Origin: a bacterium
GTDB taxonomy: Bacteria > Elusimicrobiota > Elusimicrobia > Elusimicrobiales > UBA9959
Direction: 5' to 3'
Length of the DNA: 39,163 nt
Assembly (NCBI GenBank): GCA_021811185.1
Contig: JAJZPL010000027.1
Location: forward strand, 1 to 39,163
Part shown: positions 4,020 through 16,922 of the stretch, one piece after another
Position numbering within the stretch: the first letter of the stretch is position 1
Layout of the letters: each line of letters opens with the position of its first letter
Translations under genes and position numbers: made by a program
Notes under the pieces: model-generated
Database searches by the model: none
Told to the model about the DNA's origin: nothing
The model's input: the letters and a program-made list of their open reading frames with translations, nothing else

Positions 4020-4076
4020 GGGAATCTTCCTCCTGTAATCTTAAAGTTCCGATATGCCCTTCGTATCCCTGTTCAT

Positions 4077-4176
4077 AGTTTACACCGGGGGATGGAGTTC
4101 CAACAGTATCCTTGGTCCCTGTTCTTCGAGGAAATGGACCCGCCGATTTTTCCGCTAACTTTACTGTTTCTTTACC
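4077..4176 (-). promoter_or_regulatory. Class A promoter of the 3324-4019 gene
   Basis: Read on the minus strand: direct repeat GGTAAAGAAAC / AGTAAAGTTAG (4155-4176, 11-bp period), 35 nt, GGGAC (4115-4119), 32 nt, then TAAACTAT with hexamer TAAACT at 4077-4082. The start codon is 57 nt further on. The same order and spacing occur in front of four other leader-A genes. No good -35 box is visible, which suggests activator dependence. Confidence 0.65.
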
Positions 4177-4293
4177 GTTAATCCTGCGCGTCAAGCTCCT
4201 TGCGTCAAGCCGTTAACTCTTCGCTCCGGACGCTGAGCCGTAAGTTCCTCCGAAGCGGCATAAGCGCGGCCGCACGCCCACGTCCGGACACTC

Positions 4294-5049
4294 TCATTCC
4301 AGGCACGGGTCCGAACTGACCCTGCGTATACAGCCCCTGGAGCTGCAGCCGCCGCCCTCGAGCCAGCAGCCGTAAACATTACAGCCGCTGGCGCGGCGCG
4401 AGCAGCCGAACGCGCCGCAATCTCCGCCGGGATAATAGGTCCCGAAGTCGTTGGCCCCGCCGCAGCTCTCAAAAGGATCGGACGAGGGGTACGGAGCCGT
4501 ACCATACTTGTCCAGGTAGTTTATCGTGAAGCTCTCCCCGCCCAGCCTCGTTTCCAGGACTATATAGCCGCTGTTGGCCATTTTAGCCGCCATATGCGCC
4601 ATCGCGGCTTCCCTGCCGCCCTTAGGCTCGGCTGCTATGTTGAGGTATTCCCAGATATTGCTGTCGCCGGGCGCGTTGAAATACAGCCTGTAGCGGTCGG
4701 CGTCCTGGAAGCTTTCGTAGACCTGGTAGCCGGCGGCGGTCAAGCCCTTCACGGCCGCTTCCAGGGAAAGCGCGGCGGCCTGGGCGGACAGGAACCGCCC
4801 GCTTTCAAACCACTTGGGCCTGCTGGGCGCGGGCGCATGCGGGTGAGGCTGAGGGGAATGGTCCCAGGAGGACCCGGGCTGATGGCCGCCGCCGTGTCCG
4901 AAGAACCCGCGGACCGGGCCGGCCGTCATCTCCGAGCCCAAACTATTGAACACGGCTTCCGAAGAGTTCCTTAACTCCTCCGGTCCCCCGGCCAGGGCCG
5001 CGGCTCCGGATGACAGCATTATAATCAATACCGCTATGAATCTCATCAT
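4294..5049 (-). CDS. Exported protein with His/Pro linker and Cys-rich tail, unknown function
   Basis: 251 residues. Signal peptide MMRFIAVLIIMLSSGAAALA, cleavage near AGG. Residues about 45-75 are a Gly/His/Pro linker (GGGHQPGSSWDHSPQPHPHA). Residues about 80-185 look like a compact alpha/beta domain (LSLEAAVKGLTAAGYQVYES onward). The last 60 residues hold ten Cys, many in Gly-rich spacing (GGDCGAFGC, GCNVYGC, GGGCSSRGC), resembling a disulphide-knotted or metal-binding tail. AAGGAGAACTT precedes ATG 5049; an adjacent second ATG is an alternative. It lies 62 nt after the lipoprotein gene 5112-5915 and may be cotranscribed with it. I recognise no family. Confidence 0.75.
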   Translation of the reverse strand: MMRFIAVLIIMLSSGAAALAGGPEELRNSSEAVFNSLGSEMTAGPVRGFFGHGGGHQPGSSWDHSPQPHPHAPAPSRPKWFESGRFLSAQAAALSLEAAVKGLTAAGYQVYESFQDADRYRLYFNAPGDSNIWEYLNIAAEPKGGREAAMAHMAAKMANSGYIVLETRLGGESFTINYLDKYGTAPYPSSDPFESCGGANDFGTYYPGGDCGAFGCSRRASGCNVYGCWLEGGGCSSRGCIRRVSSDPCLE

Positions 5050-5111
5050 AAGTTCTCCTTAAATTCTCCCCGCCGTCGTCTCCGCGCTCCGGGGGAAGTT
5101 TACGTGCGGGG

Positions 5112-5915
5112 CTACCGCCCGTGGCATTCTCCCTGGAAAGTATAGACTTTCTCCGTATCTGAAGCGTGCCCGCTGTAGTCGGCAAGGTTCTTCTCCCCGC
5201 GCAGGAACCTGGCCGAAATATCCCGGTCCGTAGTCTCATAATAGTAGCGCACGAACCTTTCCCCGTAACGGGTCGCCCATACGGTATGGCAGTTGGGCGG
5301 AAGCTGCCCGTGCGCGGGGCCGGCGTGCTCCGGGTGGCCGGGCATAGGCACATGGGGCGCGCGCAGGTCATTCGTCCCCGCCGGGGACAGCAGGCTTATT
5401 TCATTCAGCAGGGCCTCCCCGGAAACACCCGCGGTAAAGCCCTTATCGGCGGCGGCCTTGTCGCAGATAATGTCCTGCGCCTGATAACTGCAGCTTTCCA
5501 TGCCGCCTTCCTCCGGGCCGCGGTGTATATAGGTGGCTATATCACCGGCCAGGTCGAAGTTCTGCCCCGTCTGGACGGCGTTCAGGCGGAAATGCTCCCC
5601 GAGGGGGATGTTCTTGTCGAATTTAAGTTCTATGGTAGTAGCCGGGCTGGCGTTATCAACCTCGAGACGGATCATATTCTCGTTGTTGACCGGCCCGAGG
5701 GTGGCCCTGGCGGTGAACTGCCCCGGATCAAGCACGATGGTCTTCTCCGGCTTGCAGTTCCACCAGTCGAATGCCTGATCGCAGTCCTGGCCTTTCTGCA
5801 CGAACGTAATGGGCTCGTGGACCCCGAGAACGCCGCTGAACTTTATTCCGCAGCCGGCAAGAACGGCAGCCGCCAGCCCCAGCATCCACGCACCAGCCAA
5901 TGATTTCCGTCTCAT
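5112..5915 (-). CDS. Predicted lipoprotein, unknown function
   Basis: 267 residues. A type II signal peptide with lipobox L-A-G-C puts the lipidated Cys at residue 22 (WMLGLAAAVLAGCG). The mature part begins with a beta-rich domain (IKFSGVLGVHEPITFV) and contains further cysteines (CDQAFDWWNC, MESCSYQAQDIIC, PNCHTV, GECHGR). A His/Pro-rich patch (HVPMPGHPEHAGPAHGQ) lies near residue 195. AGGAGG precedes ATG 5915 with slightly long spacing. It probably sits on the inner or outer membrane facing the periplasm. It lies between a leader-A gene upstream and a Cys-rich exported protein downstream. A hairpin at 5950-5980 separates it from the upstream gene, and no clear promoter of its own was seen. 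Confidence 0.8.
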   Translation of the reverse strand: MRRKSLAGAWMLGLAAAVLAGCGIKFSGVLGVHEPITFVQKGQDCDQAFDWWNCKPEKTIVLDPGQFTARATLGPVNNENMIRLEVDNASPATTIELKFDKNIPLGEHFRLNAVQTGQNFDLAGDIATYIHRGPEEGGMESCSYQAQDIICDKAAADKGFTAGVSGEALLNEISLLSPAGTNDLRAPHVPMPGHPEHAGPAHGQLPPNCHTVWATRYGERFVRYYYETTDRDISARFLRGEKNLADYSGHASDTEKVYTFQGECHGR

Positions 5916-5949
5916 AATACGCCGCCTCCTGAGATATACCGCCGCCGCA

Positions 5950-5980
5950 CGTCCGGGGATTCCTTTCCTGGAACCGGACG
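5950..5980 (-). terminator. Stem-loop after the 5990-6610 gene
   Basis: The arms CGTCCGG (5950-5956) and CCGGACG (5974-5980) pair, 9 nt past the stop on the minus strand. There is no T-run, so it may attenuate rather than end transcription into the lipoprotein gene. Confidence 0.4.
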
Positions 5981-5989
5981 GGAAAGGCC

Positions 5990-6610
5990 CTAGTAGTTCT
6001 TTATATTCCTCATGTCGATCCTGAAATTACCGCCGGTCTTGGGATCCTTGTGCCATTTCCCGTCGATAACGACCGCGACTTCCTGATAACCGCCGGGGAC
6101 AAGGCCCTTCCTGGTCCCGAAGGGAAGCTCCGCCGTCGCCTTGGCCGTCTTGGCGGCCGCGTCATAGTCGACCAAGCTCAGATCCAGTTCGCGATACTCC
6201 GGATAAGTAGAAGCCCAGGCCGGCTCGTTCCAGCTGTCTCCGGGGCGGTAGTTTATAAAAACCACCTTTACCCGGCCCGCGCTATCCGCTACGGGGGCGT
6301 CGGCAGGGAAATAAACATTGAGCCATACGGGACCGGCCGTAACCATATTCCCCACCAGGGACGCGAGCTGGTAATCTATCTTGACCTTAACGCCGTTATC
6401 CGAGTTAAGCTCTATATGCTTCCAGTCACCGTATCCGGCCCTGGCAGCCGGCCCCTCGGCCGCGGCCGCGCTGACTGCGGGCACCACCGCTTCGGACGAA
6501 GCCTTCTTTACGTCCGCCGCCTTGATCCCATCCAAACCGAACCCGCCGGCGTAGCCCGTACCGGACACCGCCAGCAGAACCGCAACTACTATTTTTGTGT
6601 TTACTTTCAT
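5990..6610 (-). CDS. Exported orphan protein A2 (leader A), beta-sandwich-like
   Basis: 206 residues from ATG 6610, preceded by AAGGAG at 10 nt. A longer frame to 6676 would run back over the predicted -10 box and is rejected. Signal peptide MKVNTKIVVAVLLAVSGTGY then AG, followed by the leader-A motif GGFGLDGIKAADV and AVVPAV. The mature part, about residues 55-206, is rich in alternating beta strands (VKVKIDYQLASLVGN, GRVKVVFINYRPGDSW, GYQEVAVVIDGKWH) and has few or no cysteines, unlike A1 and A3. It resembles a carbohydrate-binding or Ig-like sandwich only in general character, and I cannot assign a family. A class A promoter lies upstream and a stem-loop follows. Confidence 0.8.
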   Translation of the reverse strand: MKVNTKIVVAVLLAVSGTGYAGGFGLDGIKAADVKKASSEAVVPAVSAAAAEGPAARAGYGDWKHIELNSDNGVKVKIDYQLASLVGNMVTAGPVWLNVYFPADAPVADSAGRVKVVFINYRPGDSWNEPAWASTYPEYRELDLSLVDYDAAAKTAKATAELPFGTRKGLVPGGYQEVAVVIDGKWHKDPKTGGNFRIDMRNIKNY

Positions 6611-6675
6611 AAGATCAATTCTCCTTATCCTGTATCGAACAACGACCGCAATGTCTTTACTCCGCCAATATTTCA

Positions 6676-6775
6676 AGTTTAGCTCCTATAAAGGATGCTT
6701 CATAGTGTCCATAGTCCCTGTTTCCGCCGGAAATGGGCCCCCGGATAAGCCCTGCTTCTTTACCTGTTCTTTACC
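6676..6775 (-). promoter_or_regulatory. Class A promoter of the 5990-6610 gene
   Basis: Read on the minus strand: GGTAAAGAACA / GGTAAAGAAGC (6754-6775), the cleanest 11-bp direct repeat of the set, then 35 nt, GGGAC (6714-6718), 32 nt, TAAACT (6676-6681). The start codon is 65 nt downstream. Confidence 0.65.
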
Positions 6776-6808
6776 GTATGGAGCGCGCAGCGTCGCCGGA
6801 CAAGGCCT

Positions 6809-6858
6809 GACGCACTTACTACAGCAATGATTCTGAAGGGGCACGCCTTACGTTTTAA
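6809..6858 (+). pseudogene. Relic of the 3' end of an A6-like gene (homologue at 17431-17498)
   Basis: CTTACTACAGCAATGAT is identical at 6815-6831 and 17437-17453. The match continues with one mismatch through CTGAAGGG, and GACGCA also matches upstream after a 2-nt deletion. In frame it reads YYSNDSEGARLTF then stop, against PYYSNDPEG in the intact gene. The rest of the gene is absent. It is jammed between the promoter of A2 and the stop codon of A3, which it overlaps. Confidence 0.6.
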
Positions 6859-7371
6859 TGCTTGACCCAGCACGGTATGTTCACCAGCGGGGTCGCCTGT
6901 CCGTCCCTCATAGAGGTCATCGAGGGCTTGCCGCCGTTCTGGCCGGGGGTGATCGTCACGGAGACCCTGGAGGTGTTCCCGAAGAGCGTCAGGTCGCCTG
7001 CCACATTGAGCTTCCCGTCCGGAGCCTGGCTCACTACCTTTACATTGCCGAGCTCCATCGCCATCCTCAGGTCGCCGCCGGCAAACTGCCAGAGGCGGAC
7101 GCTGCTGCCGTTGAGCGCTATGGCATGCCCCTCATCCCCTTCCGACAGGCAGACGTAAGAGGGATTCTCCACTTTGGTCATCTGGCTGTCATGGGACGAG
7201 CCGGGCAGATTGAAGAGCTTGCCCTGGGACGGCGCCATTACGAACTTGGCGCAGCCGCCGTTCTGCACTAGCGAGGAATTCAGCTTCGGCCTGGTGACCG
7301 TGGTTCCGCCGGGACACTTGAATTCGCACTTGTCCGCGTTGACACCGCTGAACGCGCAGGTTTCCATGCCG
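6855..7371. repeat. Duplicated 3' segment, copy 2 (copy 1 at 3324-3840)
   Basis: See the partner copy. The two segments end together at the codons for GMETC, where homology stops and the A3-specific helical segment begins. Confidence 0.85.
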
Positions 7372-7958
7372 TCCATGGCCAGCCCGGCGCGGCCCTGTAC
7401 TGCGCCGATGTCCACTACGTCCGCGTAAATAGCGGCCAGCTCGCGCCTCAGTTCGGCGTAAGTGCCCGCGGATATCAGCGCGGAATATATCCGGTCCTTG
7501 GCCGCGGCGCTCCTGGCGCGCATCTCCACCATTGACTTGGCCTCTTTGCCCGCCTGATCATAGACCCTGGCGTACGTCTTCAGCGCGGACACGCTGGTCT
7601 CGTAAGCGGCCCGGCTCGGGGAGGCCGGGTCGGGCTTGGCGGCGATCCTGGCCACGGCGGCGCCGTAATAGCCGGCGTAAAGCGCCGGGGTCAGGTCCAT
7701 GATGCCGTCGTCCAGCAGGAGCTGGGAAGCCAGGCCCGCCGTGCGCTCGTCGCTGTTAACCAGATAGGCGCGCTCGAAGTCATTTATCGTCCCCTGCGCG
7801 GCTTTCCCGACCGCCAGTTCAGCGGACGGCATCGGAAGCGCCACCTCGGTTTTCGCCACGTCTCCAGCTTTGACGGCGCCCAAAGAGAACTCCCCGGCGT
7901 AACCCGTACCCGAAACTGCCAGCAGAACCGCCGCTACCGCATTAATGCTTGCTTTCAT
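6855..7958 (-). CDS. Exported orphan protein A3 (leader A; longer mosaic paralogue of A1)
   Basis: 367 residues. Signal peptide MKASINAVAAVLLAVSGTGY then AG, and leader-A motif GEFSLGAVKAGDV. Residues about 45-195 are a mostly alpha-helical segment absent from A1 (for example NDFERAYLVNSDERTAGLAS and LISAGTYAELRRELAAIYAD). Residues about 197-367 are the same Cys-containing domain as A1 (CAFSGVNADKCEFKCPGG to NIPCWVKH). A1 and A3 therefore share promoter, leader and C-terminal domain and differ by about 400 bp in the middle. AGGAGGAA lies 9 nt upstream of ATG 7958. It is predicted to be secreted or periplasmic; the function is unknown. Confidence 0.85.
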   Translation of the reverse strand: MKASINAVAAVLLAVSGTGYAGEFSLGAVKAGDVAKTEVALPMPSAELAVGKAAQGTINDFERAYLVNSDERTAGLASQLLLDDGIMDLTPALYAGYYGAAVARIAAKPDPASPSRAAYETSVSALKTYARVYDQAGKEAKSMVEMRARSAAAKDRIYSALISAGTYAELRRELAAIYADVVDIGAVQGRAGLAMDGMETCAFSGVNADKCEFKCPGGTTVTRPKLNSSLVQNGGCAKFVMAPSQGKLFNLPGSSHDSQMTKVENPSYVCLSEGDEGHAIALNGSSVRLWQFAGGDLRMAMELGNVKVVSQAPDGKLNVAGDLTLFGNTSRVSVTITPGQNGGKPSMTSMRDGQATPLVNIPCWVKH

Positions 7959-8118
7959 GACACTCTTCCTCCTGTAATCTTAAAGTTCCGATATGCCCTT
8001 TGCATCCCTGTTCATAGTTTACACCGGGGGATGGAGTTCCAACAGTATCCTTGGTCCCTGTTCTTCGAGGAAATGGGCCCTAAGATTTTTCCGCTAATTT
8101 TACTGCCTCTTTACCATA
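7959..8118. repeat. Duplicated upstream region, copy 2 (copy 1 at 4020-4180)
   Basis: The 5' untranslated and promoter region of A3 is nearly identical to that of A1, from the ribosome-binding site (TCCTCCTGTAATCTTAAAG on the plus strand) through the direct-repeat operator. Divergence begins just beyond the operator, so the whole control region moved with the leader. Confidence 0.85.
8016..8115 (-). promoter_or_regulatory. Class A promoter of the 6855-7958 gene
   Basis: GGTAAAGAGGC / AGTAAAATTAG (8094-8115), 35 nt, GGGAC (8054-8058), 32 nt, TAAACT (8016-8021), read on the minus strand. It is a duplicate of the A1 promoter, so it is not independent evidence for the motif. Confidence 0.65.
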
Positions 8119-8406
8119 GGTTAGAATCTCCGCCCAGAACGTAACACCGTTCACAGCAGGCCTAGCCGGCGGTCAAACTTGCCTGGAGTTCGTACGGAAT
8201 TGCACCAGGTGACACAAGAGCGGGTGTTTTACGCGAGAACGGGCGGCGCGGAACAGGGCTTCACGGGAGACTTCCAGCAGGAAGATGCGATTCAGGCTTT
8301 TGAGGGGACCACACAGAGCCTGGCGCGTGCGTAAGCCGCGCCAGGCTCGTTCCCTCCGCAAAGAGACCCAAGGGCCAGGAGTTCAAGTATCAAGTGACAA
8401 CAACGT
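8116..8406. other. Non-coding stretch, no supported gene
   Basis: The stretch lies between the A3 operator and the stop of the 8407-9363 gene. A 62-codon frame (8173-8361, minus) starts only with TTG inside a hairpin and resembles nothing I know. A plus-strand frame ending QSLARA also has no start signal. Apart from the stem-loop at 8316-8348 I see nothing. Confidence 0.5.
8316..8348 (-). terminator. Stem-loop after the 8407-9363 gene
   Basis: Perfect 12-bp stem (GAGCCTGGCGCG with CGCGCCAGGCTC), 9-nt loop, 58 nt past the stop. There is no T-run on either strand. Confidence 0.5.
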
Positions 8407-9363
8407 TTACCTCGCAATGCGGAACCCGATGGATATGTGATTGTCGGCCGGGTCGAAGCGGCCGCGTATACCGGCCAGCAGTCGAAAGGCTTTACTGTCG
8501 TAGAAGGAGCCGCCGCGGACTATACGGAGAGGCCCCTCGCCCTCGAACGCACTGCCGTCAGAAGGCGCGTCTTTATAAGAAAACTGGTGTTTATCCTGCA
8601 CCCACTGCGCTACGTTGCCTGACATATCGCACAGCCCCTGCGCGGTGTTCCCCAAGGGCCTTGAGCAGACCGGTTTGGTGCCGCTGGTATTGAATATGGC
8701 CAACTCGGTGGCAGGATCATTATTGCCCCATGGGTATTTCTGGTTCCTGCCGCCGCTTCTCGCCGCGTACTCCCATTCAGCCTCGCTGGGAAGCCTCGCG
8801 CCCTTGAACCTGGCATAAGCCTGTGCCTGGTTCCAGTTCACGCAGTTTACAGGGTGGAATTGCCTGCCGGGGTCACCCCAGTTACAAAGATCATCTTGGG
8901 CAAAACTCACCGGCTCCGTGCAACGTCCCTTGGCCACACATTCGGCGTACTGCGCCACCGTCACAGCGGTTTTAGCAAGCTTAAAGGTCTTAATAGATAC
9001 CTCATGGGCCGGCTTGGCATCTCCGAGATACGCTTCACCGCTGTCGGTGCCCATTGTAAACTTCCCTCCAGGAATAGTGAGATACTCAACCGGCTTTGCG
9101 GGGGCGCCGCGTGAAAGGTACATCTCAGCCACATCTCTTTTATTGCCGTGCTCCCACCGGGAGCCGGTTTCCACATAGAACGGCTTTATCTCGGGTTCAG
9201 GAACTTTTACGTCCCGCTCGTCCCTCTCTGCCTTTAAGACGCCAATGGCACTGTCGGACACCGCATCCCGCAGATCGGACGGGATGGCGTTATGCGGGCG
9301 CATATATAAATACGCCCCCGCGGTTACTGACATTATCGCAAGTACCCCTATTTTTTTATTCAT
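8407..9363 (-). CDS. Leader-B protein B1 with a formylglycine-generating-enzyme-like (SUMF1/FGE-sulfatase) domain
   Basis: 318 residues. An N-terminal membrane segment (about residues 5-21, IGVLAIMSVTAGAYLYM) is followed by the leader-B motif IPSDLRDAV and DVKVPEP. From about residue 92 the FGE-sulfatase fold is clear: IPGGKFTMGTDSGEAYLGD, then PAHEVSIKTF, VTVAQYAECV, HPVNCVNWNQAQAYARFKGA, RLPSEAEWEYAARSG, YPWGN, GLCDMSGNVAQWVQD, IVRGGSFYDS, and GFRIAR at the C-terminus. The catalytic cysteines of true formylglycine-generating enzymes, expected shortly after RGGS, are missing (FYDSKAFRLLAG). It is therefore more likely a non-FGE member of the superfamily, perhaps a binding or scaffold protein. 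It is probably anchored in the inner membrane and faces the periplasm. Its promoter carries a class B operator. Confidence 0.85.
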   Translation of the reverse strand: MNKKIGVLAIMSVTAGAYLYMRPHNAIPSDLRDAVSDSAIGVLKAERDERDVKVPEPEIKPFYVETGSRWEHGNKRDVAEMYLSRGAPAKPVEYLTIPGGKFTMGTDSGEAYLGDAKPAHEVSIKTFKLAKTAVTVAQYAECVAKGRCTEPVSFAQDDLCNWGDPGRQFHPVNCVNWNQAQAYARFKGARLPSEAEWEYAARSGGRNQKYPWGNNDPATELAIFNTSGTKPVCSRPLGNTAQGLCDMSGNVAQWVQDKHQFSYKDAPSDGSAFEGEGPLRIVRGGSFYDSKAFRLLAGIRGRFDPADNHISIGFRIAR

Positions 9364-9749
9364 AACACTGCCTCCTTACTCACCACATAATCCTAAAACG
9401 AACTGCGTATACCGCCATGGGCGGCCAGCTATCCAGGCTCGACGCAGGCTCACAAGGCATAACCGCTAAAACACTACGGCCATGGATCAGGTTGCGCGTC
9501 TTTTCGAGTCCGCCACACGCAGGCATATCAAGGCTAAACAGAGTCTACCAGAAGTCCGGTTACATTTCGGTAACACTCCGCGAGTTTTACCGCGGCCGTT
9601 TTTTACTCCACCCGGAGCCGCCGCGCGGCGGCACGGTCCGCCGACGGCAGAACCGCCGCAACGTCCGCCCTGATATCTACAATTATTGCCCGTGTTTTTC
9701 CGTCTGCTGGCCGCGTATACTTCATAACCACGGCCGCGTCTCCCGCCCC
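9364..9749. other. Long 5' region of the 8407-9363 gene plus 3' flank of the 9750-10388 gene
   Basis: This stretch holds the class B promoter at 9542-9579, which implies a 5' untranslated region of about 170 nt for B1, and a 16-bp perfect palindrome GCCGCCGCGCGGCGGC at 9617-9632 that could end transcription from the upstream gene. No open frame with a ribosome-binding site was found. Confidence 0.45.
9542..9579 (-). promoter_or_regulatory. Class B promoter of the 8407-9363 gene
   Basis: Plus-strand direct repeat GGTTACATTTC / GGTAACACTCC (9558-9579, 11-bp period). On the minus strand a TAGACT hexamer (9542-9547) follows after 10 nt. The same arrangement occurs at 14806-14842, which places a regulator over the -35 region. 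Confidence 0.55.
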
Positions 9750-10388
9750 TTATTTAATTTTGCAGAGGTAGCCCCATTTCATGCCGTTGCCGCCGAAGTA
9801 AGTGTTGGCGGAGTTTTCCGAGTAGACGCGGGCTTCGCGTATCGTGATGGGGTTCCCCAGCAGGGCCTCTACAGTGGGAGCCGTATTTATATCCAACTCT
9901 ACCCGTGTCCCGGACGCGAGGCCGAAACCTTCGTAGAATTTATCCATCCCCAAGTAAGTGTGCCATTCAGTGGGAGGAAGCCCGGTGACGGTGCCGCTCA
10001 GGTGAGAAGAGGCCTCACGCGGGAACCCGGCCAGCCGGTAATCGGCGGAGAGCAACTTCCTAGGGCTGCCATGTTCCGTATCAAGATAGCTCTTGAAGTT
10101 GGAGAGCGAAATGGAGCATTTCCCGCCGAGAGGGATGCTGTACTGCTTCGTGTTCTTATCGTACTGATACAGGCTCCCCTCCGCATAGCCCTGCGCCGCG
10201 GAAGCTCTCTCGGGCCCGGATCTGGATACCGCCGCCGTGGCTTTTGAGACGTCTTTGGGGACGGACGGTACGGCTATCTCAGCCGCGCCTTTCAGGTCCT
10301 TGGCCCTTATCGCCAGGTCAGAAAATTCCGCGGCCCCGGCTGCCCCCGTTATCCCCAGCAAGATCGCCGCTATCAAAGCATTCCTCAT
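9750..10388 (-). CDS. Exported orphan protein A4 (leader A)
   Basis: 212 residues. The ribosome-binding site decides the start: GGAGGT (RC at 10396-10401) is 7 nt from ATG 10388 but only 1 nt from the ATG at 10394, so 10388 is chosen. A longer frame up to 10490 would cross the promoter. Signal peptide MRNALIAAILLGITGAAGAA, then leader-A motif EFSDLAIRAKDL and EIAVPSV. The mature part has a beta-rich character (KCSISLSNFKSYLDTEHG, ADYRLAGFPREASSHLSG, GTRVELDINTAPTVEALLG) and ends in GYLCKIK. Two cysteines may form one disulphide. I recognise no family. It is transcribed from its own class A promoter. Confidence 0.8.
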   Translation of the reverse strand: MRNALIAAILLGITGAAGAAEFSDLAIRAKDLKGAAEIAVPSVPKDVSKATAAVSRSGPERASAAQGYAEGSLYQYDKNTKQYSIPLGGKCSISLSNFKSYLDTEHGSPRKLLSADYRLAGFPREASSHLSGTVTGLPPTEWHTYLGMDKFYEGFGLASGTRVELDINTAPTVEALLGNPITIREARVYSENSANTYFGGNGMKWGYLCKIK

Positions 10389-10432
10389 AAACATTACCTC
10401 CGGACTGTTGTATTTTTCTACTGCCTGGAGAT

Positions 10433-10533
10433 AGTTTAGCCCATCCTCAACATACCCGGAAGGGTTCTTGGTCCCGGAGCCTTTTGTCATACTGCCTATC
10501 GCAACCGGGCGGAATTTTAACCGTTTTTTTACC
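10433..10533 (-). promoter_or_regulatory. Class A promoter of the 9750-10388 gene
   Basis: Minus strand: GGTAAAAAAAC / GGTTAAAATTC (10512-10533), 36 nt, GGGAC (10471-10475, in the longer match GGGACCAAG shared with A1), 32 nt, TAAACT (10433-10438). It is otherwise unrelated in sequence to the A1/A3 region, so it is independent support for the layout. The 36-nt gap is the single deviation from 35. Confidence 0.65.
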
Positions 10534-10582
10534 GTGGCCCGTCCGGGCCGTTCATGGGCGAGTCCGGCGCTGCACGCGCCGC

Positions 10583-10616
10583 AAAAAAACTCCCGGCGCT
10601 ATCTCAGCGCCGGGAG
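10583..10616 (-). terminator. Rho-independent terminator of the 10669-11310 gene
   Basis: Stem CTCCCGGCGCT (10590-10600) pairs perfectly with AGCGCCGGGAG (10606-10616), loop 5 nt. On the minus strand it is followed by seven T's (10589-10583). It is the best intrinsic terminator in the island. Confidence 0.9.
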
Positions 10617-10668
10617 CGGTCACGTCCCCTGCCTGTCTGAATATTCAACAACCTGACGCCGGGGTATC

Positions 10669-11310
10669 CTAAATACACGGATTAACGGCGCCGGCGTTGC
10701 CGCCATGGCAGGCGTACGCGTAATTATTATCCACGCAGCCGCCATAGAACCGCACTACGGCGCCGCCCAGATCCACATCAGCATAGCAGCGGACCATGTT
10801 GCCGCAGGCCGAGGAATCCACGGTCCAGCTCTGGTCGTTCACCGAGCAGCTTCCACCGGCGTGCGCCAGCGACCCCGACAGGAGTTCGATGGAATCGCAG
10901 GGGTTGGCGACGGCGGCCGCCCCGCCCCCGCGGCACTCCGAAGGCGAAGTAACACAGCTTCCGTAAAGACGGAGGGAAGCTCCGCCGAAAGAAACTTCCG
11001 CGTAACACCGCGACTTGCCTTCCGAATTGCGGCACCCCGAGCTGTCGGTGGTCCAGCTCTGGTCGGTCAGCTCGCAAGAGCCGTACCTGGCCGTGGCCGC
11101 CTTGTTAGCAGCGCGGAAATCCACCCGCCGCCAGGACACTCCCGTTATCGTGCTATCAACGCGCACGGGTGCCGTGGAGAGCTGTATCACGGCTTCGCCG
11201 GCCTTCATACCGCCGCTTTCGGCCTTTAAGGTTTCTAACGCGCCGCCTGCCGCGCGAACTTGCCCGGAACAGGCCAGCATCAGGACCGCGGCGCATGTTT
11301 TGATATTCAT
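10669..11310 (-). CDS. Exported Cys-rich protein A5 with a tandem internal duplication
   Basis: 213 residues from ATG 11310, which has GGAG 5 nt upstream; an earlier in-frame start at 11352 lacks this. Signal peptide MNIKTCAAVLMLACSGQVRA, then a degenerate leader A (LETLKAE). The mature part is two copies of a roughly 60-residue disulphide-type repeat: YGSCELTDQSWTTDSSGC with RCYAEVSFGGASLRLYGSCV, and GSCSVNDQSWTVDSSACG with RCYADVDLGGAVVRFYGGCV, each followed by a G-rich NPC tail. The pattern W-T-x-D-S-S-x-C suggests a small secreted, perhaps ligand-binding, domain, but I cannot name it. It lies 58 nt downstream of a response-regulator gene on the same strand and has no class A promoter, so it is probably cotranscribed with the regulator. 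Confidence 0.8.
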   Translation of the reverse strand: MNIKTCAAVLMLACSGQVRAAGGALETLKAESGGMKAGEAVIQLSTAPVRVDSTITGVSWRRVDFRAANKAATARYGSCELTDQSWTTDSSGCRNSEGKSRCYAEVSFGGASLRLYGSCVTSPSECRGGGAAAVANPCDSIELLSGSLAHAGGSCSVNDQSWTVDSSACGNMVRCYADVDLGGAVVRFYGGCVDNNYAYACHGGNAGAVNPCI

Positions 11311-11368
11311 AGTTACTCCTTCATTTTTTCCGCGGCCCGCTCCGCCGGACAACCGGCCTGGAAACGTC

Positions 11369-12067
11369 TCACTTCCCCGCCGGGAGCATCTTGTAACCGT
11401 CGGGGCGCACCGCCACTATCAGCGCCCCTTTGTCTCCCAGTTTCCTGCGCAGGTTCATAACGGTTACGTCGACGGTCTTCCTGCCTACGGTCCCTCCCTG
11501 GGCCTTCCAGACCGTGCCCAGCAGGAATTCCCGCGTCAGCACGGTGCCGGCTTTTTCCATAAGCACGCGCAGCAGTTCGTATTCCCTGCCGGTAAGGTCT
11601 ATAACGCCGTCTTTGACCATTACTCTGCGGCCCGGCAGGTCCAGCACTATCCCGCCGGCCTCGAGCCTCCCGGCCAGAAAAACGGCGCCGGGGCACGTTC
11701 TGCGCAGGATGGCGTCCACGCGGGCCAGAAGTTCGTCCATTTCGAACGGCTTAGCCAGGTAGTCGTCGGCCCCGAAACGCAGCCCCAGCACCTTGTCTGG
11801 CGGAGCGTCCTTGCCTGTAAGCATTATTATCGGGACGCCGCGGAAGCGGGAATCTTTCCGCAAGGTCAGGCAAAGGCTCAGCCCGTCCCCGTCCGGCAGG
11901 CCGCGGTCCATTATTATCATGTCGGTATTGGCCTGTTCCAGCAGCCGGCGCCCCTCCGCCAATGTCCTTGCCGCCCGGACTAGGTGCCCCGCGTCCCGGA
12001 AAGCGGCCGACAGCAATTCAACGACGGCTTCGTCGTCCTCTATAACAAGAATTGAGATAGCGCTCAT
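11369..12067 (-). CDS. OmpR/PhoB-family response regulator (RR1)
   Basis: 232 residues: receiver domain at about residues 5-120 with acidic pocket EDD, phospho-acceptor Asp in IIMDRGLPDGDGL (about residue 54), Thr switch MLTGKD and Lys in LAKPFEMDELLARV, then a winged-helix Trans_reg_C domain (LTGREYELLRVLMEKAGTVL, RKTVDVTVMNLRRKLGD, VRPDGYKML). All key receiver residues are present. Such regulators bind direct repeats with 11-bp periods. No histidine kinase is encoded in the window, so the partner is unknown. No Shine-Dalgarno sequence is visible before ATG 12067. A leader-A gene (10669-11310) follows at 58 nt, and other island genes carry 11-bp repeat operators, so control of the island is a reasonable inference. 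Confidence 0.95.
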   Translation of the reverse strand: MSAISILVIEDDEAVVELLSAAFRDAGHLVRAARTLAEGRRLLEQANTDMIIMDRGLPDGDGLSLCLTLRKDSRFRGVPIIMLTGKDAPPDKVLGLRFGADDYLAKPFEMDELLARVDAILRRTCPGAVFLAGRLEAGGIVLDLPGRRVMVKDGVIDLTGREYELLRVLMEKAGTVLTREFLLGTVWKAQGGTVGRKTVDVTVMNLRRKLGDKGALIVAVRPDGYKMLPAGK

Positions 12068-12100
12068 AAGTGGTTTTTATTACAAACACCATCCGTGCAT

Positions 12101-12139
12101 AAAAGCCCTCTCCCGCCGGCTCCGCGGCAACGGCGGGAG
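12101..12139 (-). terminator. Terminator of the 12157-12921 gene
   Basis: CTCCCGCCG (12110-12118) pairs with CGGCGGGAG (12131-12139). On the minus strand the stem is followed by GGGCTTTT. It lies between the stop of B2 and the start of RR1, so RR1 probably has its own promoter, perhaps the TGTAATAA stretch close to its start. Confidence 0.7.
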
Positions 12140-12156
12140 GGAGACATTTAACATCT

Positions 12157-12921
12157 TCACTTACGGCATGGCACTTTCGTAAAATAGTACGCGTAACCTC
12201 TTACTTCTGATTTATACGGCATCTGAACTATCAGATAGCCGGAATTCATACGGAATTTGGTCACATTGTCGTAGCCGTTCTCCTGCCACTTGGTAGCCGC
12301 GGAACCATCTTCGTACTCTACTGGGTCCAACAGCTGTTCCACTTCGGAGCTGTTGCATAAAGACGAAGGTTCCAGATCCGTATTGAAACTAGCCGCCACC
12401 AGCTTTTTTTTGCCGTCGAACAGCGGTCCGCTGTCGGGAATCAACGCCCGTTCTCTTCCAACAAACACAGCTTTGTATACATTATTATTAACGAACAGCC
12501 GCCCTTCTGCCACACCCAGCAGATCCTTCTTGCCCGGCTGCGTACCGGCCTCGAACATCCGTTTCAGCACATCATAAGGGGCCTCGTCCCCGAATCTGAT
12601 GCCGGAGCTCTTGTTTGCCGCCGACCTTTTCGCCATCCCGTCAAACAGCGGTCCGCCGTCGGAGGCGGTACGGCCGCCGAACCAGCAGGATTTAGACCCC
12701 ACGACCTTCACTGCCTCAGCCGCCTCCCGATTAGGTTCCGGCACGTTGATATCCTGGACGTCCCGGCCTTCATTTAACGTGTCAAAAGCTTCTCCGGCCA
12801 CCGCGTCGCGCAGGTCGCCGGGGATATGCGCCGGGACCACGCGAAGGCTACGGGCGTAGAAACCGCCCGCCGCTATTATCGCCACCGCCGCCAACCCTAT
12901 CCATTTCAGTTTAGTGTTCAT
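12157..12921 (-). CDS. Leader-B protein B2, unknown payload
   Basis: 254 residues from ATG 12921, with GGAGAACTT just upstream; a start 8 codons earlier would include the ribosome-binding site. A membrane segment (KWIGLAAVAIIAAGGFY) is followed by leader-B motif RVVPAHIPGDLRDAVAG, DINVPEP. Residues 1-45 are almost identical to those of the 13001-14743 protein, including at DNA level. The payload has a twofold motif, GGPLFDGMAKR near residue 88 and SGPLFDGKKKL near residue 166, and ends YAYYFTKVPCRK. I recognise no family. It is probably inner-membrane anchored and periplasmic. It lies 79 nt after B3, which suggests one transcript, and is closed by the terminator at 12101-12139. Confidence 0.8.
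   Translation of the reverse strand: MNTKLKWIGLAAVAIIAAGGFYARSLRVVPAHIPGDLRDAVAGEAFDTLNEGRDVQDINVPEPNREAAEAVKVVGSKSCWFGGRTASDGGPLFDGMAKRSAANKSSGIRFGDEAPYDVLKRMFEAGTQPGKKDLLGVAEGRLFVNNNVYKAVFVGRERALIPDSGPLFDGKKKLVAASFNTDLEPSSLCNSSEVEQLLDPVEYEDGSAATKWQENGYDNVTKFRMNSGYLIVQMPYKSEVRGYAYYFTKVPCRK
12794..12874. repeat. Near-identical leader-B DNA, copy 1 (copy 2 at 14622-14702)
   Basis: Over about 81 bp the two copies differ at only two positions (constant offset 1828), while the rest of the two genes is unrelated. This implies recent duplication or gene conversion limited to the leader. Confidence 0.85.
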
Positions 12922-13000
12922 AAGTTCTCCTCTATTTGTCCCCAAGATAGCCTACCCTACGCCCCCGCCTTGGTTCGGCTCGACGTAAACTTATGCCAGC

Positions 13001-14743
13001 TCAATGGCTCGGCGGGAGCAACTCCTTCCCATTGGCGCTCACCGTGAAACCCTTCTGGAGCAGATATTTCAGCTCATAATCCGCATAAGATCCCGGCCAT
13101 AATCCCGGCCGCATCTTGTCTATTGGCCCCGCCACCAGCCTGAACCTGTCCCCTCGCGCTATTGCTAGGTCCAAAAGCTTTTGATCGAGAACCCGGCCCG
13201 CCGGATCTGCTTTTTGGAAACCCAATCCCACGAGAGTTTCCCCGTTAGCGCTCCTGAGCGGAGTAGGAGATTCCGGAAAAGAATTCGCGGCCGCTTCGAG
13301 TCTCCCGGCAGGAACATGCCCCCCGCCTAACCCCAGCTTCCTCGCCCCATCGGCCAGAAAGGACTGTGTTTTGGATATTGCCGCTTTTCCGGTCACGGTC
13401 TTCCCTGCGGCCCAGCCTGCCGCTATCATTACGGCGGTGATAAGCACCGTCCCGCTCAGCCGCCCAAGCCTTTTTAACGCGCTGAACCGCGAAGCCTCGT
13501 CCCGCGCTCCCCTGTAGTCTTTGTATGCTCCATAGCCTTCCTTTATAACGGCGGCTAAAGCCGCCGTCATCATACCGCCGGCCAGCAACGAAACGGCGAT
13601 CTTGGCGATCAGCCCGACTCCTGAAATTGCGGACAACAGCATGCCGGAAAACAAGCCTATTGCGGCAAGGGCCAATCCTTTAGCGCTCCCGAACTGTTCT
13701 TTCACCGCCTCGTACAAACCGGCAAGCAAGGCCGCTGTTTGGGGATGTTTTTCGCACATGCCCGCCAGACTTTCATGTTGTTTCAGCGTCTCCCGGCATG
13801 CCGCTGCCGCCCCGCCAGGAGAGGGCGCATTTTTATTGCTCGGCAACGGCGGCACAGGCGAGACCTTGGCGGCGGAGGCCGAGGGCTGCGGGGCCTGCTG
13901 CGAGACGGGGGCAGCGGGCGAGGCCTTAGCCTGGGAAACGGGCTTGCCGACGGCTGCCGTTACGGCGGCAGCGCCGCCGGTACGGGAAACAGGCGCTTCG
14001 CCGCCGGAGAAATTGACGGCCACGCCGCCGCGGACATTCGAGCCGTCGAAGAACTTGGCCATGGCGGCCGGGTCGCCGGCGGGCATGGAGGCGGAGAACT
14101 TATCCAGCGCGGCGACGGAGGCGCTCTTAGGGGCGGCGTCCTTTTTGCCCTGCTCTCGTCCGACGGAAAGGAGCGTCACGGCCTTCATGGCGCGCATATC
14201 GTTGATGGCGTCCTGGGTCAGGTAGGCGGCGAGCACATCGTTGCCGGTAATGCCGCCCGGGGCCGTCCTGGCGGCGAAGCGCACTATGGCAAGTTTCTTC
14301 CTCAACTTGGCGGCGGCTTCCCCGCCCAGCCAGAGCTCGGCGGCCTCAAGGTTCTTTTCCTTGATGGCGGCATCGAAGCCCTTTAGGTCGCGGGTGTTCC
14401 AGGGGGCCATGGCGGCGGCGTACCATTTTTGCATGAAGGCCAGGCGACTGGCGGCCGGTTCCTTGGCCCGCAACAACTCCTGCTCTTGGGCCTGCGGCGG
14501 CACGAGGGCCCAGGTTTTGGGGGTGAAGGGGCCGACTTCGGTGAAGAGCTTGAACTCGCTGGCGTAGTCCTGCATGCCCCAAGGCACCCCGCCCGCGCCG
14601 AACTGGGATATGGCGCCATTGCCGGCCACCGCGTCGCGCAGGTCGCCGGGAATATGCGCCGGGACCACGCGAAGGCTATGGGCGTAGAAACCGCCCGCCG
14701 CTATTACCACCGCCATCGCCAGCCATTTCAGTTTAGTCTTCAT
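13001..14743 (-). CDS. Leader-B protein B3: large membrane protein with Pro-rich linker and several hydrophobic segments
   Basis: 580 residues. Residues about 7-21 are a membrane anchor, then RVVPAHIPGDLRDAVAG. Residues 45-240 are a helical domain (for example ELLRAKEPAASRLAFMQKWY). About 255-320 are an Ala/Pro/Ser-rich linker (SPAAPVSQQAPQPSASAAKV). Residues about 360-400 are hydrophobic with two likely membrane helices (LALAAIGLFSGMLLSAISGV, then KIAVSLLAGGMMTAALAAVI), and a third lies near 440 (GTVLITAVMIAAGWAAGKTV). The last 60 residues are a soluble module (LDLAIARGDRFRLVAGPIDK then YADYELKYLLQKGFTVSANG) that reminds me of short terminal modules in polymorphic-toxin-type proteins; this is only a resemblance. 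TTAAGGAGAAG precedes ATG 14743. A class B promoter lies upstream, and B2 follows on the same strand. Confidence 0.8.
   Translation of the reverse strand: MKTKLKWLAMAVVIAAGGFYAHSLRVVPAHIPGDLRDAVAGNGAISQFGAGGVPWGMQDYASEFKLFTEVGPFTPKTWALVPPQAQEQELLRAKEPAASRLAFMQKWYAAAMAPWNTRDLKGFDAAIKEKNLEAAELWLGGEAAAKLRKKLAIVRFAARTAPGGITGNDVLAAYLTQDAINDMRAMKAVTLLSVGREQGKKDAAPKSASVAALDKFSASMPAGDPAAMAKFFDGSNVRGGVAVNFSGGEAPVSRTGGAAAVTAAVGKPVSQAKASPAAPVSQQAPQPSASAAKVSPVPPLPSNKNAPSPGGAAAACRETLKQHESLAGMCEKHPQTAALLAGLYEAVKEQFGSAKGLALAAIGLFSGMLLSAISGVGLIAKIAVSLLAGGMMTAALAAVIKEGYGAYKDYRGARDEASRFSALKRLGRLSGTVLITAVMIAAGWAAGKTVTGKAAISKTQSFLADGARKLGLGGGHVPAGRLEAAANSFPESPTPLRSANGETLVGLGFQKADPAGRVLDQKLLDLAIARGDRFRLVAGPIDKMRPGLWPGSYADYELKYLLQKGFTVSANGKELLPPSH
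14622..14702. repeat. Near-identical leader-B DNA, copy 2
   Basis: Partner of 12794-12874. It covers the codons for most of the membrane segment through DLRDAVAG. Confidence 0.85.
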
Positions 14744-14805
14744 AACGGCTTCTCCTTAAGCAAAGGTGCTATTGACTCTATTTCGCCCGGTACACGTATA
14801 GCAAA

Positions 14806-14842
14806 AGTATAGCCCCTACCGGTAACATGGCGGTAACAACGG
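14806..14842 (-). promoter_or_regulatory. Class B promoter of the 13001-14743 gene
   Basis: Plus-strand direct repeat GGTAACATGGC / GGTAACAACGG (14821-14842, 11-bp period). On the minus strand TATACT (14806-14811) follows after 9 nt. GTATAGC also repeats with an 11-bp period at 14796 and 14807. Compared with 9542-9579 both repeat sequence and distance are kept. Confidence 0.55.
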
Positions 14843-14867
14843 GAGTGTCTTTCGTCCCGAAGTCACG

Positions 14868-15560
14868 CTACCTGTCCGTCCACCTGTAACCCGCTCCGGG
14901 AACGGCGTCGATACGCGTCCCGTAAGCCCCGAGCTTGCGCCTAAGCCTTGAGACCGTTACTTTTATCGTAGCCCGGACAGTTACGGACTCCAATCCCCAG
15001 ACGAACTCGCGTATAGTGGAGAACGAGAGAACATGCCCGCGTTTCTTCAGGAACAACGTCAGCAAAGCGCACTCTTTCGGCAGCAGCGCCAGTTTACGCC
15101 CGGCCACGGCCGCCTGCCCGGCGTCCAGGTCCAGCGCCAGGCCGCCCGAGACCAACTCCCGCCTGCAGCCGCCGTTGTGATAGGTCCGGCGCAGCAGGGC
15201 TTCCAGGCGGGCCAGCAGTTCCCTGCTGGAAAATGGTTTCACCACGTAGTCTTCGGCGCCGGCTTTGAACGCGTCGACCTTATACCGCTCCTCCCGCAGC
15301 GCGCTCAGCATAAGAACGGGAATATGAGAAAAACGGAGATCTGCTTTCAGTAAACCGCAAAACTTAACTCCGGAGATCCCCGGCAGGCGGATGTCCGAGA
15401 TTATAAGCTCCGGCTTATGCTCTTTCAGCCATTCCAGGGCACCGGCGGCGTCGGAAAAACATACCGTATCGTAACCTTCCCCGGCCAGAACCTCCGCCAC
15501 AAGGCGCGAAAGCCCTTCATCATCGTCCACGAGCAACACCAGCGTCCGCTGTCTTTTCAT
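14868..15560 (-). CDS. OmpR/PhoB-family response regulator (RR2)
   Basis: 230 residues. Receiver domain at about residues 8-120: acidic pocket VDDDEG, phospho-acceptor Asp in LIISDIRLPGISGVKF, switch serine in MLSALRE, Lys in VVKPFSSRELLARLEALLRR. The C-terminal winged helix (KLALLPKECALLTLFLKKRG, RATIKVTVSRLRRKLG, AVPGAGYRW) is of the Trans_reg_C type. It is only distantly similar to RR1, so this is not a recent duplicate. No kinase is nearby. It is transcribed divergently from the HTH regulator at 15749. A GGGAC-N32-TATCAT arrangement (15572-15614) sits upstream, echoing the class A promoters but without the GGTAAA repeat. The downstream gene is B3, separated by its own class B promoter. 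Confidence 0.95.
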   Translation of the reverse strand: MKRQRTLVLLVDDDEGLSRLVAEVLAGEGYDTVCFSDAAGALEWLKEHKPELIISDIRLPGISGVKFCGLLKADLRFSHIPVLMLSALREERYKVDAFKAGAEDYVVKPFSSRELLARLEALLRRTYHNGGCRRELVSGGLALDLDAGQAAVAGRKLALLPKECALLTLFLKKRGHVLSFSTIREFVWGLESVTVRATIKVTVSRLRRKLGAYGTRIDAVPGAGYRWTDR

Positions 15561-15571
15561 ATAACAGTTAA

Positions 15572-15614
15572 ATGATATTAGTTACTTTCCTTTTTCACAT
15601 GAGGCACAAGTCCC
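15572..15614 (-). promoter_or_regulatory. Possible promoter of the RR2 gene with class A-like spacing
   Basis: On the minus strand GGGAC (15610-15614) is exactly 32 nt from TATCAT (15572-15577), the spacing of the class A promoters. The upstream GGTAAA direct repeat is not found at the expected place, where GGTATCGCGAT stands instead. It could be coincidence. Confidence 0.3.
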
Positions 15615-15748
15615 ATTCCGGATACCCCGTCGGCTTACGTTAAAAATGTAGCCTATATCGCGATACCGGATATGTTCCGTACGCCTACACAGCAAAACCA
15701 TTTTTTTGCTTTAATGAAGGTGGACGGCGGGGTTTTGAGGTAACGCAC

Positions 15749-16594
15749 ATGGATACTGTTTTTTCCGCGATCCTGAGGAAGTACAGGGAAGAGGCCGGGT
15801 TCAAAACAGCCTACGCTTTTTACAACAACAACGGCGGGAAGGATATTTTCAGATTCTCCTACCGGCTGTACCTTGCCATGGAGGACGGCAGGCGCCTGCC
15901 GGCGTTCAAATATCTGCCGGTCCTCCTGCATGGGTTAAGGCTGGTGCCGCTGACGGCGGAAGCCTCACAGCTCATCTCCGCCTGGCTGGAGCAGAAATTG
16001 GGGAAGGACTCTTTCACTTATCTGCTGAAGCCCCTGCTAAAAGATCCGCCTCAGCCCTCCATTGCCTCTCCGCTGCATAGGGCGCTGGAAAGGTCCCTGG
16101 CCGGGAAAAAAGCATATCTCACTCCTGAGCAGATGGACGCCATCTCCGGCAGTAAGGCTAATTTCCTATGCTGGACGGCTCTTTCCAACGACACGGGCCA
16201 ATGGACGCCTGAAAAGCTGGGGAACAACCTTAAACTTGCCGCTTCAGAAGTGAAGACCGCGCTGAACAGACTTGCCGCGGCAAAACTGGTAAAAAAAACA
16301 AGCTCCGGGAGCTACAAATGCCCTCTGGCCGGAGAGATGATAGAATTCCCCCGCCAGAACGTAGTCAGGTCCGCAAAAAAACTCAGGGACCTGCGTAACG
16401 AACTTATTTCAGGGGGAGAGGAGATCTACTCCAGGCGCGGCATTTTACGCGCCGAGACCGCGGATTTCTTCAGGTATTTTCCATTGCTCTCGCTCAACCT
16501 CTCAACGGCGCAGACCTATGCCGTAACCGAAAAAAAGCAAAAGACGGCCATCTTTGCCGTCGAATGCAAAGTGGTGAAGATTCGGGATTTTTAG
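15749..16594 (+). CDS. HTH transcriptional regulator, TIGR02147/DUF4423-like
   Basis: 281 residues, ATG 15749 with GAGGT 8 nt upstream. Residues 1-60 resemble an XRE-type helix-turn-helix (ILRKYREEAGFKTAYAFYNN, then YLAMEDGRRLPAFKYLPVLL). Residues about 145-195 form a winged-helix domain (LCWTALSNDTGQWTPEKLGN, then VKTALNRLAAAKLVKKTSSG). The C-terminal part ends in an amphipathic region (PLLSLNLSTAQTYAVTEKKQ). This order and length fit the TIGR02147 group of regulators known from Fibrobacteres and relatives; assignment is from memory of the pattern, not a search. It is divergent from RR2 across 188 nt. It could regulate the island or just itself. Confidence 0.75.
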   Translation: MDTVFSAILRKYREEAGFKTAYAFYNNNGGKDIFRFSYRLYLAMEDGRRLPAFKYLPVLLHGLRLVPLTAEASQLISAWLEQKLGKDSFTYLLKPLLKDPPQPSIASPLHRALERSLAGKKAYLTPEQMDAISGSKANFLCWTALSNDTGQWTPEKLGNNLKLAASEVKTALNRLAAAKLVKKTSSGSYKCPLAGEMIEFPRQNVVRSAKKLRDLRNELISGGEEIYSRRGILRAETADFFRYFPLLSLNLSTAQTYAVTEKKQKTAIFAVECKVVKIRDF

Positions 16595-16773
16595 CTCATC
16601 TCGAAGGCTTCTAAAACCGTCACGGGCACGCCGGGCACGCATTCAACTCGCTTTGCTGAATGGCGGCCCCCTTTCCGGCTGTCTTAGTTCAATCTTTCAC
16701 TTTTCCCGCTCCGTCTCAGCGGATGATGCGAATGAGCGTCCGCCTGGGCGCTCCGTCGGAGCGGCCCGTTTTT
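16595..16773. other. Intergenic stretch after the HTH gene, closed by a terminator
   Basis: No gene is supported between 16595 and the class A operator at 16774. Only the terminator-like stem at 16746-16773 was recognised. Confidence 0.4.
16746..16773 (+). terminator. Terminator-like hairpin downstream of the HTH regulator
   Basis: GGGC-GCTCC pairs with GGAGC-GGCCC (one bulged G, loop GTC), followed by TTTTT at 16769-16773. It abuts the direct-repeat operator of the next gene, so it probably insulates that gene. Confidence 0.6.
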
Positions 16774-16873
16774 GTAAAAGACCGGTAAAAGAATGCAAAA
16801 AGGCACGTAGGCACAATGTTGGAAGAAGCCGGGACTATCGCTCTTTTGCGGAGGCGCTCTTGCTGGGTAGACT
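16774..16873 (+). promoter_or_regulatory. Class A promoter of the 16923-17498 gene
   Basis: Plus strand: GTAAAAGACCG / GTAAAAGAATG (16774-16795), 35 nt, GGGAC (16831-16835), 32 nt, TAGACT (16868-16873, in TAGACTAT). It lies on the opposite strand and is unrelated to the other copies outside the three elements, so it strongly supports the layout. Confidence 0.65.
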
Positions 16874-16922
16874 ATACCTGGAAGTTAACCGCGGCCGAGT
16901 ATAAATTCAGGAGGGAAAACAT

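Follow-up and report, generated by a model that had tools for sequence, protein, structure and literature searches.

A near-fixed promoter layout before exported-type protein genes in Elusimicrobiota, with candidate regulators

Why would five promoters on one contig, one of them on the opposite strand, keep the same elements in the same order at nearly the same distances? The contig is JAJZPL010000027.1 of an Elusimicrobiota bacterium, 39,163 nucleotides (nt) long and analysed in full; below it is called the window. It belongs to a 3.09-Mb assembly (GCA_021811185.1) that is 93.6% complete. The genes behind these promoters start at 4019, 6610, 7958 and 10388 on the minus strand and at 16923 on the plus strand, and their products are of exported type, as judged by eye from hydrophobic leaders. 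The shared order is an 11-bp direct repeat of the GGTAAA type, then GGGAC, then exactly 32 nt, then TA(A/G)ACT. We have little doubt that this layout and its recurrence in other genomes are real. As an explanation we favour, with somewhat better than even confidence, a composite activator promoter with two inputs, on which RR1, a response regulator encoded in the window, and dimers of a NarL-type protein would act together with RNA polymerase, and which would serve a patchily distributed island of secreted proteins.

A preliminary description, made from the letters of the window, had already reported the repeat, GGGAC, the exact 32 nt and TANACT at all five genes, and the sequence bears this out. 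Its gap of 35 or 36 nt between repeat and GGGAC does not survive a recount. Promoters 4019, 6610 and 7958 have 40 nt there and 16923 has 41 nt; at 10388 the gap is 41 nt when counted by 17-mer, or 40 nt if an extra base is assigned to the repeat. Given these true gaps, a pattern with N35/36 would match none of the five. The pattern GTAAA-N6-GTAAA-N30..42-GGGAC-N28..36-TANACT is found 4 times in the window, while 100 shuffles give 0.00 matches on average. The promoter it misses is 10388, because the second repeat unit there has the extra base (GGTTAAA).

These four are also the only matches in the whole genome, and there are none when the pattern is read backwards. The bare repeat GTAAA-N6-GTAAA is found 11 times in the genome (4 times backwards), and none of the 7 copies outside the window belongs to a full pattern. 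Among 60 relatives there are 3 more full sites in 3 genomes, each with an open reading frame (ORF) of exported type 65-115 nt after the -10. The preliminary description had proposed just such a search of genome and relatives with a shuffled control; the pattern is present in the window, absent from shuffles and found in few relatives.

The part from GGGAC to the -10, here called the core, has a wider distribution. It was followed through a genus set of 32 genomes, the own genome and 31 others, where GGGAC-N32-TANACTAT has 31 matches, versus 8 backwards. Leaving out L024, L031 and L036 (taken as chance matches, for want of further conservation) and L043 (a duplicate), and adding 6610, which lacks the TAT end, gives 28 sites. 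On these, columns outside the search are conserved as GGGACYAANGNCNCTT, a conservation somewhat flattered because three sites were dropped for being weakly conserved. Another alignment, A1, also drops L022, L034 and L044 and has 25 rows.

R1 is a sequence-only model of the 51-nt core, with no repeat in it; R2 is its reversal. R1 has at least 344 matches at E<=1 in the 32 genomes, R2 has 9, the best of them at E=0.091. The 344 are not all one promoter, because many of the weaker ones stop short of GGGAC and a reversal is no control for an ordinary -10. At E<=0.01, R1 matches in at least 29 of the 32 genomes, where the weaker matches may be a mere -10. Across the phylum (247 genomes, stricter filters), matches at E<=0.001 occur in at least 16 genomes: 11 of the genus, own included, 4 of the family and 1 of the class. 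All counts from model searches are lower bounds, because part of the first-look candidates was scored (150 of 230-685 per genome for R1, 114 for R3, the full-layout model described below, and 24 for the phylum).

The hexamer is TAAACT at four window promoters and TAGACT at 16923. In the genus pattern, TANACTAT was set by the search except for its third base, and at 17-nt spacing just the TT of a -35 is conserved. Seven nt past the hexamer there is a pyrimidine in 22 of the 28 sites, followed by a purine in 26. This step agrees with the transcription start that had been expected about 7 nt after the hexamer, and the starts given below are predicted on that basis. A sigma-54 promoter was considered as well; by eye, no layout of that kind is seen.

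GGGAC appears to be the left arm of a dyad, GGGAC-YAAN-GNCMC, whose centre would lie near -42.5 if transcription starts 7 nt after the hexamer. The left arm was fixed by the search; in the right arm of the 28 sites G is found in 25, C in 21 and C in 26, with two variable columns. A weaker copy lies 22 bp upstream, its best columns being G (22/28) and C (19/28). The dyad is called box 1 here and the copy box 2. A second factor at GGGAC near -45 had been proposed earlier; a second site does seem to be present, in the changed form of a dyad near -42.5 with an upstream copy. Its 5-4-5 geometry is that of the OsdR consensus.

In the window these elements can be placed as follows. Promoter 4019 (minus strand) has the direct repeat GGTAAAGAAACAGTAAA at 4160..4176, the weakly conserved box 2 GGGTCCATTTCCTC at 4128..4141, box 1 GGGACCAAGGATACTG at 4104..4119 and the -10 at 4077..4082, with a start predicted at 4070. 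For promoter 6610 (minus) the repeat GGTAAAGAACAGGTAAA is at 6759..6775, box 2 GGGCCCATTTCCGG at 6727..6740, box 1 GGGACTATGGACACTA at 6703..6718, the -10 at 6676..6681 and the predicted start at 6669. Promoter 7958 (minus) has its repeat GGTAAAGAGGCAGTAAA at 8099..8115, a box 2 assigned by position at 8067..8080, a box 1 identical to that of 4019 at 8043..8058, and the -10 at 8016..8021 (predicted start 8009). At 10388 (minus) the repeat GGTAAAAAAACGGTTAAA, with the longer second unit, occupies 10516..10533; box 2 AGGCAGTATGACAA is at 10484..10497, box 1 GGGACCAAGAACCCTT at 10460..10475 and the -10 at 10433..10438 (predicted start 10426). Promoter 16923, on the plus strand, runs from the repeat TGTAAAAGACCGGTAAA at 16773..16789 through box 2 AGGCACAATGTTGG at 16809..16822 and box 1 GGGACTATCGCTCTTT at 16831..16846 to the -10 at 16868..16873, with the start predicted at 16880.

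The 4019 and 7958 promoters are duplicates, as had been said: they are near-identical from the repeat through the leader. The other three had been called unrelated in flanking sequence, and this is not so. They share the conserved stretch past GGGAC, the second box and a common N-terminal leader. The earlier claim of a spacing conserved independently of sequence holds only in part within the window, whose promoters and leaders seem to be related by descent; better evidence for it is found in other genomes.

That evidence starts from 59 core sites (63 before removal of near-duplicates), a subset of the 344 that includes the window sites and is partly non-blind, since some regions were chosen for their clustered R1 matches. 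A repeat scoring at least 10/12 is carried by 19 of the 59, in 18 cases at 40-43 nt upstream of GGGAC and in one at 28 nt. Shuffled upstream sequences of the same sites give 0.57 repeats at any distance, and the opposite orientation gives 0. No such repeat accompanies the core at the other 40 sites.

Eighteen sites with the repeat were aligned over 121 columns, which read GGTAAAGGAACGGTAAA, TGGGCC, TAGGCC-N-TTT, GGGACCAAGGACACTT and the -10. R3 is a model of the full layout made from them. At E<1e-10 it finds at least 35 sites in 10 of the 32 genomes. Of these, 18 served to train it and 17 did not, two of the 17 being close copies of training rows. Once the five window sites are set aside, the best match in the own genome has E=0.0035. 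Sites are clustered, with six in 24 kb of a 243-kb contig (G026) and four in 9 kb (G024). They lie on one contig in seven genomes, on two in G012 and G028 and on three in G018, so that the idea of one locus per genome had to be softened.

Of 57 R3 matches in the regions chosen, 53 sites with E<2e-4 were examined. The model itself contains the repeat, and 46 of the 53 score at least 10/12 for GGTAAA-N5-GGTAAA, two direct units with an 11-bp centre distance. The gap to GGGAC is 40-43 nt in 44 of these 46, and 28 and 30 nt in the other two. The repeat would be centred near -98 to -100, its end being about 77-80 nt upstream of the -10, which fits the earlier proposal of an OmpR/PhoB-type site about 95 bp upstream. 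By an automatic rule, 44 of the 53 sites are followed by a start codon and a hydrophobic leader, although at least 3 of these 44 ORFs look spurious (L168:7046, L168:3805 and L170:4799); among the 9 sites without an automatic ORF, a relaxed listing finds an exported-type start at 5. The layout search supports a rigid composite promoter before exported-type proteins.

Which protein would read the repeat? RR1 (11369..12067, minus strand) is an OmpR/PhoB-type response regulator with a receiver domain (PF00072, E=2.3e-25) and a winged-helix Trans_reg_C domain (PF00486, E=8.1e-19). Its nearest solved sequences are BasR, PrrA and RegX3. Relatives with 46-57% identity over nearly the full length are found in the promoter regions of G030, G024, G028, G026, G014, G002 and G011, and in 6 of these 7 non-window genomes the orthologue is no more than 0.3 kb away from a site. 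Of the 10 genomes that have strong repeat promoters, 8 also have an intact RR1, on the same contig stretch as the promoters; of the 22 others, 0 have one (p=4.3e-6, uncorrected for relatedness). Two of the 32 genomes have no PurH match, and on a PurH tree of the other 30 at least 6 changes are needed to account for the promoters. Of 6 independent pairs, an average of 5.2 show RR1 changing in the same direction as the promoters, and none shows the opposite.

Two further RR1-like genes were not counted as intact. That of G005 stops before its DNA-binding domain is complete, and one in G016 is a receiver only; the 39.5 kb and 38 kb searched there hold no R3 match (E<=1). All in all, comparison of these genomes makes RR1 a likely reader of the direct repeat. 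Both response regulators of the window had been put forward as readers. RR1 stays a candidate for the repeat; RR2, beside which a different repeat lies, does not.

The dyad is harder to assign. Four NarL-type response regulators are encoded in the own genome, and PF00196 also matches a fifth protein, which resembles a sigma factor by eye. For one of the four the best solved relative is VraR, with DevR listed fifth, and no DevR orthologue was identified. We put the chance that a NarL-type protein reads the dyad at about even. Elsewhere, the promoters of L116, L114, L118, L077 and L080 lie upstream of a conserved gene, are without the GGTAAA repeat and carry, by eye, tandem boxes resembling AGGTC-CTTT-GTCCT at a distance of about 21 bp. 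Whatever protein reads the dyad may act on these promoters as well.

In the two-input reading, vegetative RNA polymerase would use the conserved -10 with a degenerate -35. A NarL-family dimer with a specificity like that of DevR/OsdR would occupy the GGGAC-N4-GNCMC dyad near -42.5, a second dimer would sit on the weaker copy 22 bp upstream, and both would help recruit polymerase. An OmpR/PhoB-family regulator, most probably RR1, would bind GGTAAA-N5-GGTAAA near -98. The effect would be activation, and RR1 would limit use of the core promoter to genes of the island in which RR1 and the exported proteins are encoded. A wider version is offered more tentatively, as somewhat short of an even chance: a genus-wide, DevR-like core promoter is licensed by an island-borne OmpR-type regulator as by a second key, and arrays of dissimilar exported proteins, every one behind a promoter copy of its own and tagged with either of the two conserved leaders described below, are gained, shuffled and lost together with that key.

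Several observations weigh against the two-input reading. The right arm of the dyad is degenerate and box 2 is weak. The window's contig has no PF00196 match, and none of the four NarL-type regulators is linked to the dyad by any result. The two shorter gaps were considered as one helical turn less, and this was dropped; at 28 and 30 nt they are 12-14 nt shorter than 42, a difference of no whole helical turns, and so helical phasing is not shown. Weaker R3 matches that lack most of the repeat occur in RR1-less genomes (G004 at 2.6e-6 and G016 at 2.9e-6, for example). G012 has repeat promoters and no RR1 was found there, and G018 shows just an RR1 fragment at a contig end. Conversely, G016 has a full-length RR1 relative at 42% identity and no such site in the 20 kb searched on its contig; the orthologue cut is not sharp, because this 42% is close to the weakest accepted relative, 46% in G011. 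The tree test amounts to 6 independent pairs, with a median p of 0.0625 (range 0.031-0.0625). And since RR1 and the promoters are found in one island, their shared occurrence could be linkage alone.

In the window the exported-type proteins are encoded at 3324..4019 (minus; leader AGTFELNGLKAEDV), 5990..6610 (minus; the same leader family), 6855..7958 (minus; 79% identical to 4019 plus an inserted stretch), 9750..10388 (minus; leader AEFSDLAIRAKDL) and 16923..17498 (plus; leader AEFSDLQALTASKV). None of the five has a Pfam match at E<=0.1, and no viral relatives of protein 6610 were found. All five share the N-terminal leader, in which the motif xEFxxLxxxKAxDL directly follows the apparent signal peptide. 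Across genomes there are two leader families behind the promoters, this one and RPHNxxPSDLRDAVxD; xEFxxLxxxKAxDL or PSDLRDAVxD could be a sorting tag. Among 40 promoter-linked proteins, seven Pfam families, including FGE-sulfatase, trypsin and clostripain, cover one or two proteins each and at most 11 in all. At L166 (7982-9560) two tandem genes have nearly the same promoter and agree in their first 55 codons but not in their 3' parts; this points to shuffling downstream of a shared 5' module.

Such modules lead to a rival explanation. The promoter and leader of these paralogues may have been copied together as one 5' module, with the fixed spacing inherited and under no strict functional constraint. 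The near-identity of 4019 and 7958, the leader common to all five window proteins and the L166 pair all speak for this. Across genomes, however, the -10, the dyad and the repeat are kept although what lies between them varies strongly; the same promoter stands before two different leader families; and 18 of 59 core sites have the repeat 40-43 nt away, against 0.57 expected at any gap. We consider descent alone unlikely as the explanation. A little less likely still is that a single OmpR-type protein reads everything, with the repeat and the GGGAC/GGCC boxes as its degenerate sites, in a coating like that of ArcA. In the available text of PMC3798270, an ArcA site can hold as many as five repeats, with 11 or 22 bp as the usual distances, and the boxes here are 22 bp apart. 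Yet GGTAAA is unlike GGGAC/GGCC, 40 of the 59 core sites have no repeat, and R1 matches occur in genomes without intact RR1.

The dyad could also belong to another regulator of the island and not to a NarL-type protein. An example is the DUF4423-like putative regulator at 15749..16594 (plus strand), which is under the Pfam cut-off. Its relatives recur in the same islands, with 10 further matches (E<=2.1e-18) at 7 loci in 6 genomes. Against this, the R1 matches in 29 of 32 genomes, many of them away from such islands, suit a core regulator, and both the arm sequence and the 5-4-5 geometry resemble DevR/OsdR boxes; we regard this as improbable, about as much so as descent alone. That the layout is an RNA element, or chance sequence, is very improbable. 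The GGCC-rich upstream stretch could form hairpins, but the 18 aligned sites give no consensus structure, the window has no Rfam match at gathering scores, and shuffles contain no match to the pattern.

The window holds other features besides. RR2 (14868..15560, minus) is a second OmpR/PhoB-type response regulator. As a reader of the GGTAAA repeat it was rejected: its best island matches are the RR1 orthologues, and a different repeat stands before its downstream gene. This second 11-bp repeat, TGTTACC-N4-TGTWACC, lies on the minus strand at 9558-9575 upstream of gene 9363 (10 nt before TAGACT) and at 14821-14838 upstream of gene 14743 (9 nt before TATACT). The own genome has no other match to it; in the genus there are 5, in 4 of 32 genomes, and 0 backwards. 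It precedes exported proteins of the PAD(I/L)RDAV type in G014 and G022 and lies beside an OmpR-type regulator in G016. By its position, RR2 is the natural candidate reader.

A PurH gene adjoins the cluster, and its product is 68-80% identical to PurH of 15 records of metagenome-assembled genomes. Fixed synteny with purH was rejected: the searched flanks of these 15 relatives hold no R1 match (E<=0.1), and the island is therefore not fixed at that place. A 3,059-codon ORF at 27168-36347 (minus) resembles a giant exported repeat protein.

Such sites predict which genes are targets and where transcription starts, and they point to a named candidate regulator, with which the wiring of an uncultured lineage becomes testable in a laboratory host. 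Most of the proteins have no recognised domain, so that few routes lead to their function, and shared control is one of these. A literature search found no description of this layout, nor of such a regulon in the phylum, in keeping with the earlier statement that no promoter like it was known. Two regulatory surveys, PMC3162934 and PMC9413887, reportedly mention Elusimicrobium minutum.

Composite promoters with two classes of regulator do exist, for example with NarL and FNR in enterobacteria. In contrast to these, one layout is repeated here before many genes of one patchy island. For the inner boxes, the nearest likeness is to DevR/DosR and OsdR, actinobacterial NarL-family regulators with a GGGNC-N4-GNCCC dyad of the same geometry (in the available parts of PMC3029386 and PMC5069765). 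The latter text gives the OsdR consensus as AGGGCCGATCGGCCCT, with predicted sites that include GGGACCGACCGGCCCT; in the former, the proximal box of DevR promoters overlaps the -35 and boxes are closely packed. The promoters described here differ in their degenerate right arm, in a -10 exactly 32 nt after GGGAC and in the OmpR-type repeat added upstream. The host is also different, an Elusimicrobiota, and the targets are exported-type proteins.

For the repeat, the likeness is to PhoP and ArcA boxes, where two short units also lie 11 bp apart. The PhoP box is (T/G)GTTTA-5 nt-(T/G)GTTTA in the available text of PMC3335776, and ArcA repeats have an 11-bp centre distance in that of PMC3798270. 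The units here are GGTAAA, and the repeat ends about 77-80 nt from the -10, whereas active PhoP boxes lie about 12 to 59 nt away in the portion of PMC3335776 that treats them. The layout would work like an OmpR-type and a DevR-type promoter combined, and is not filed under either regulon.

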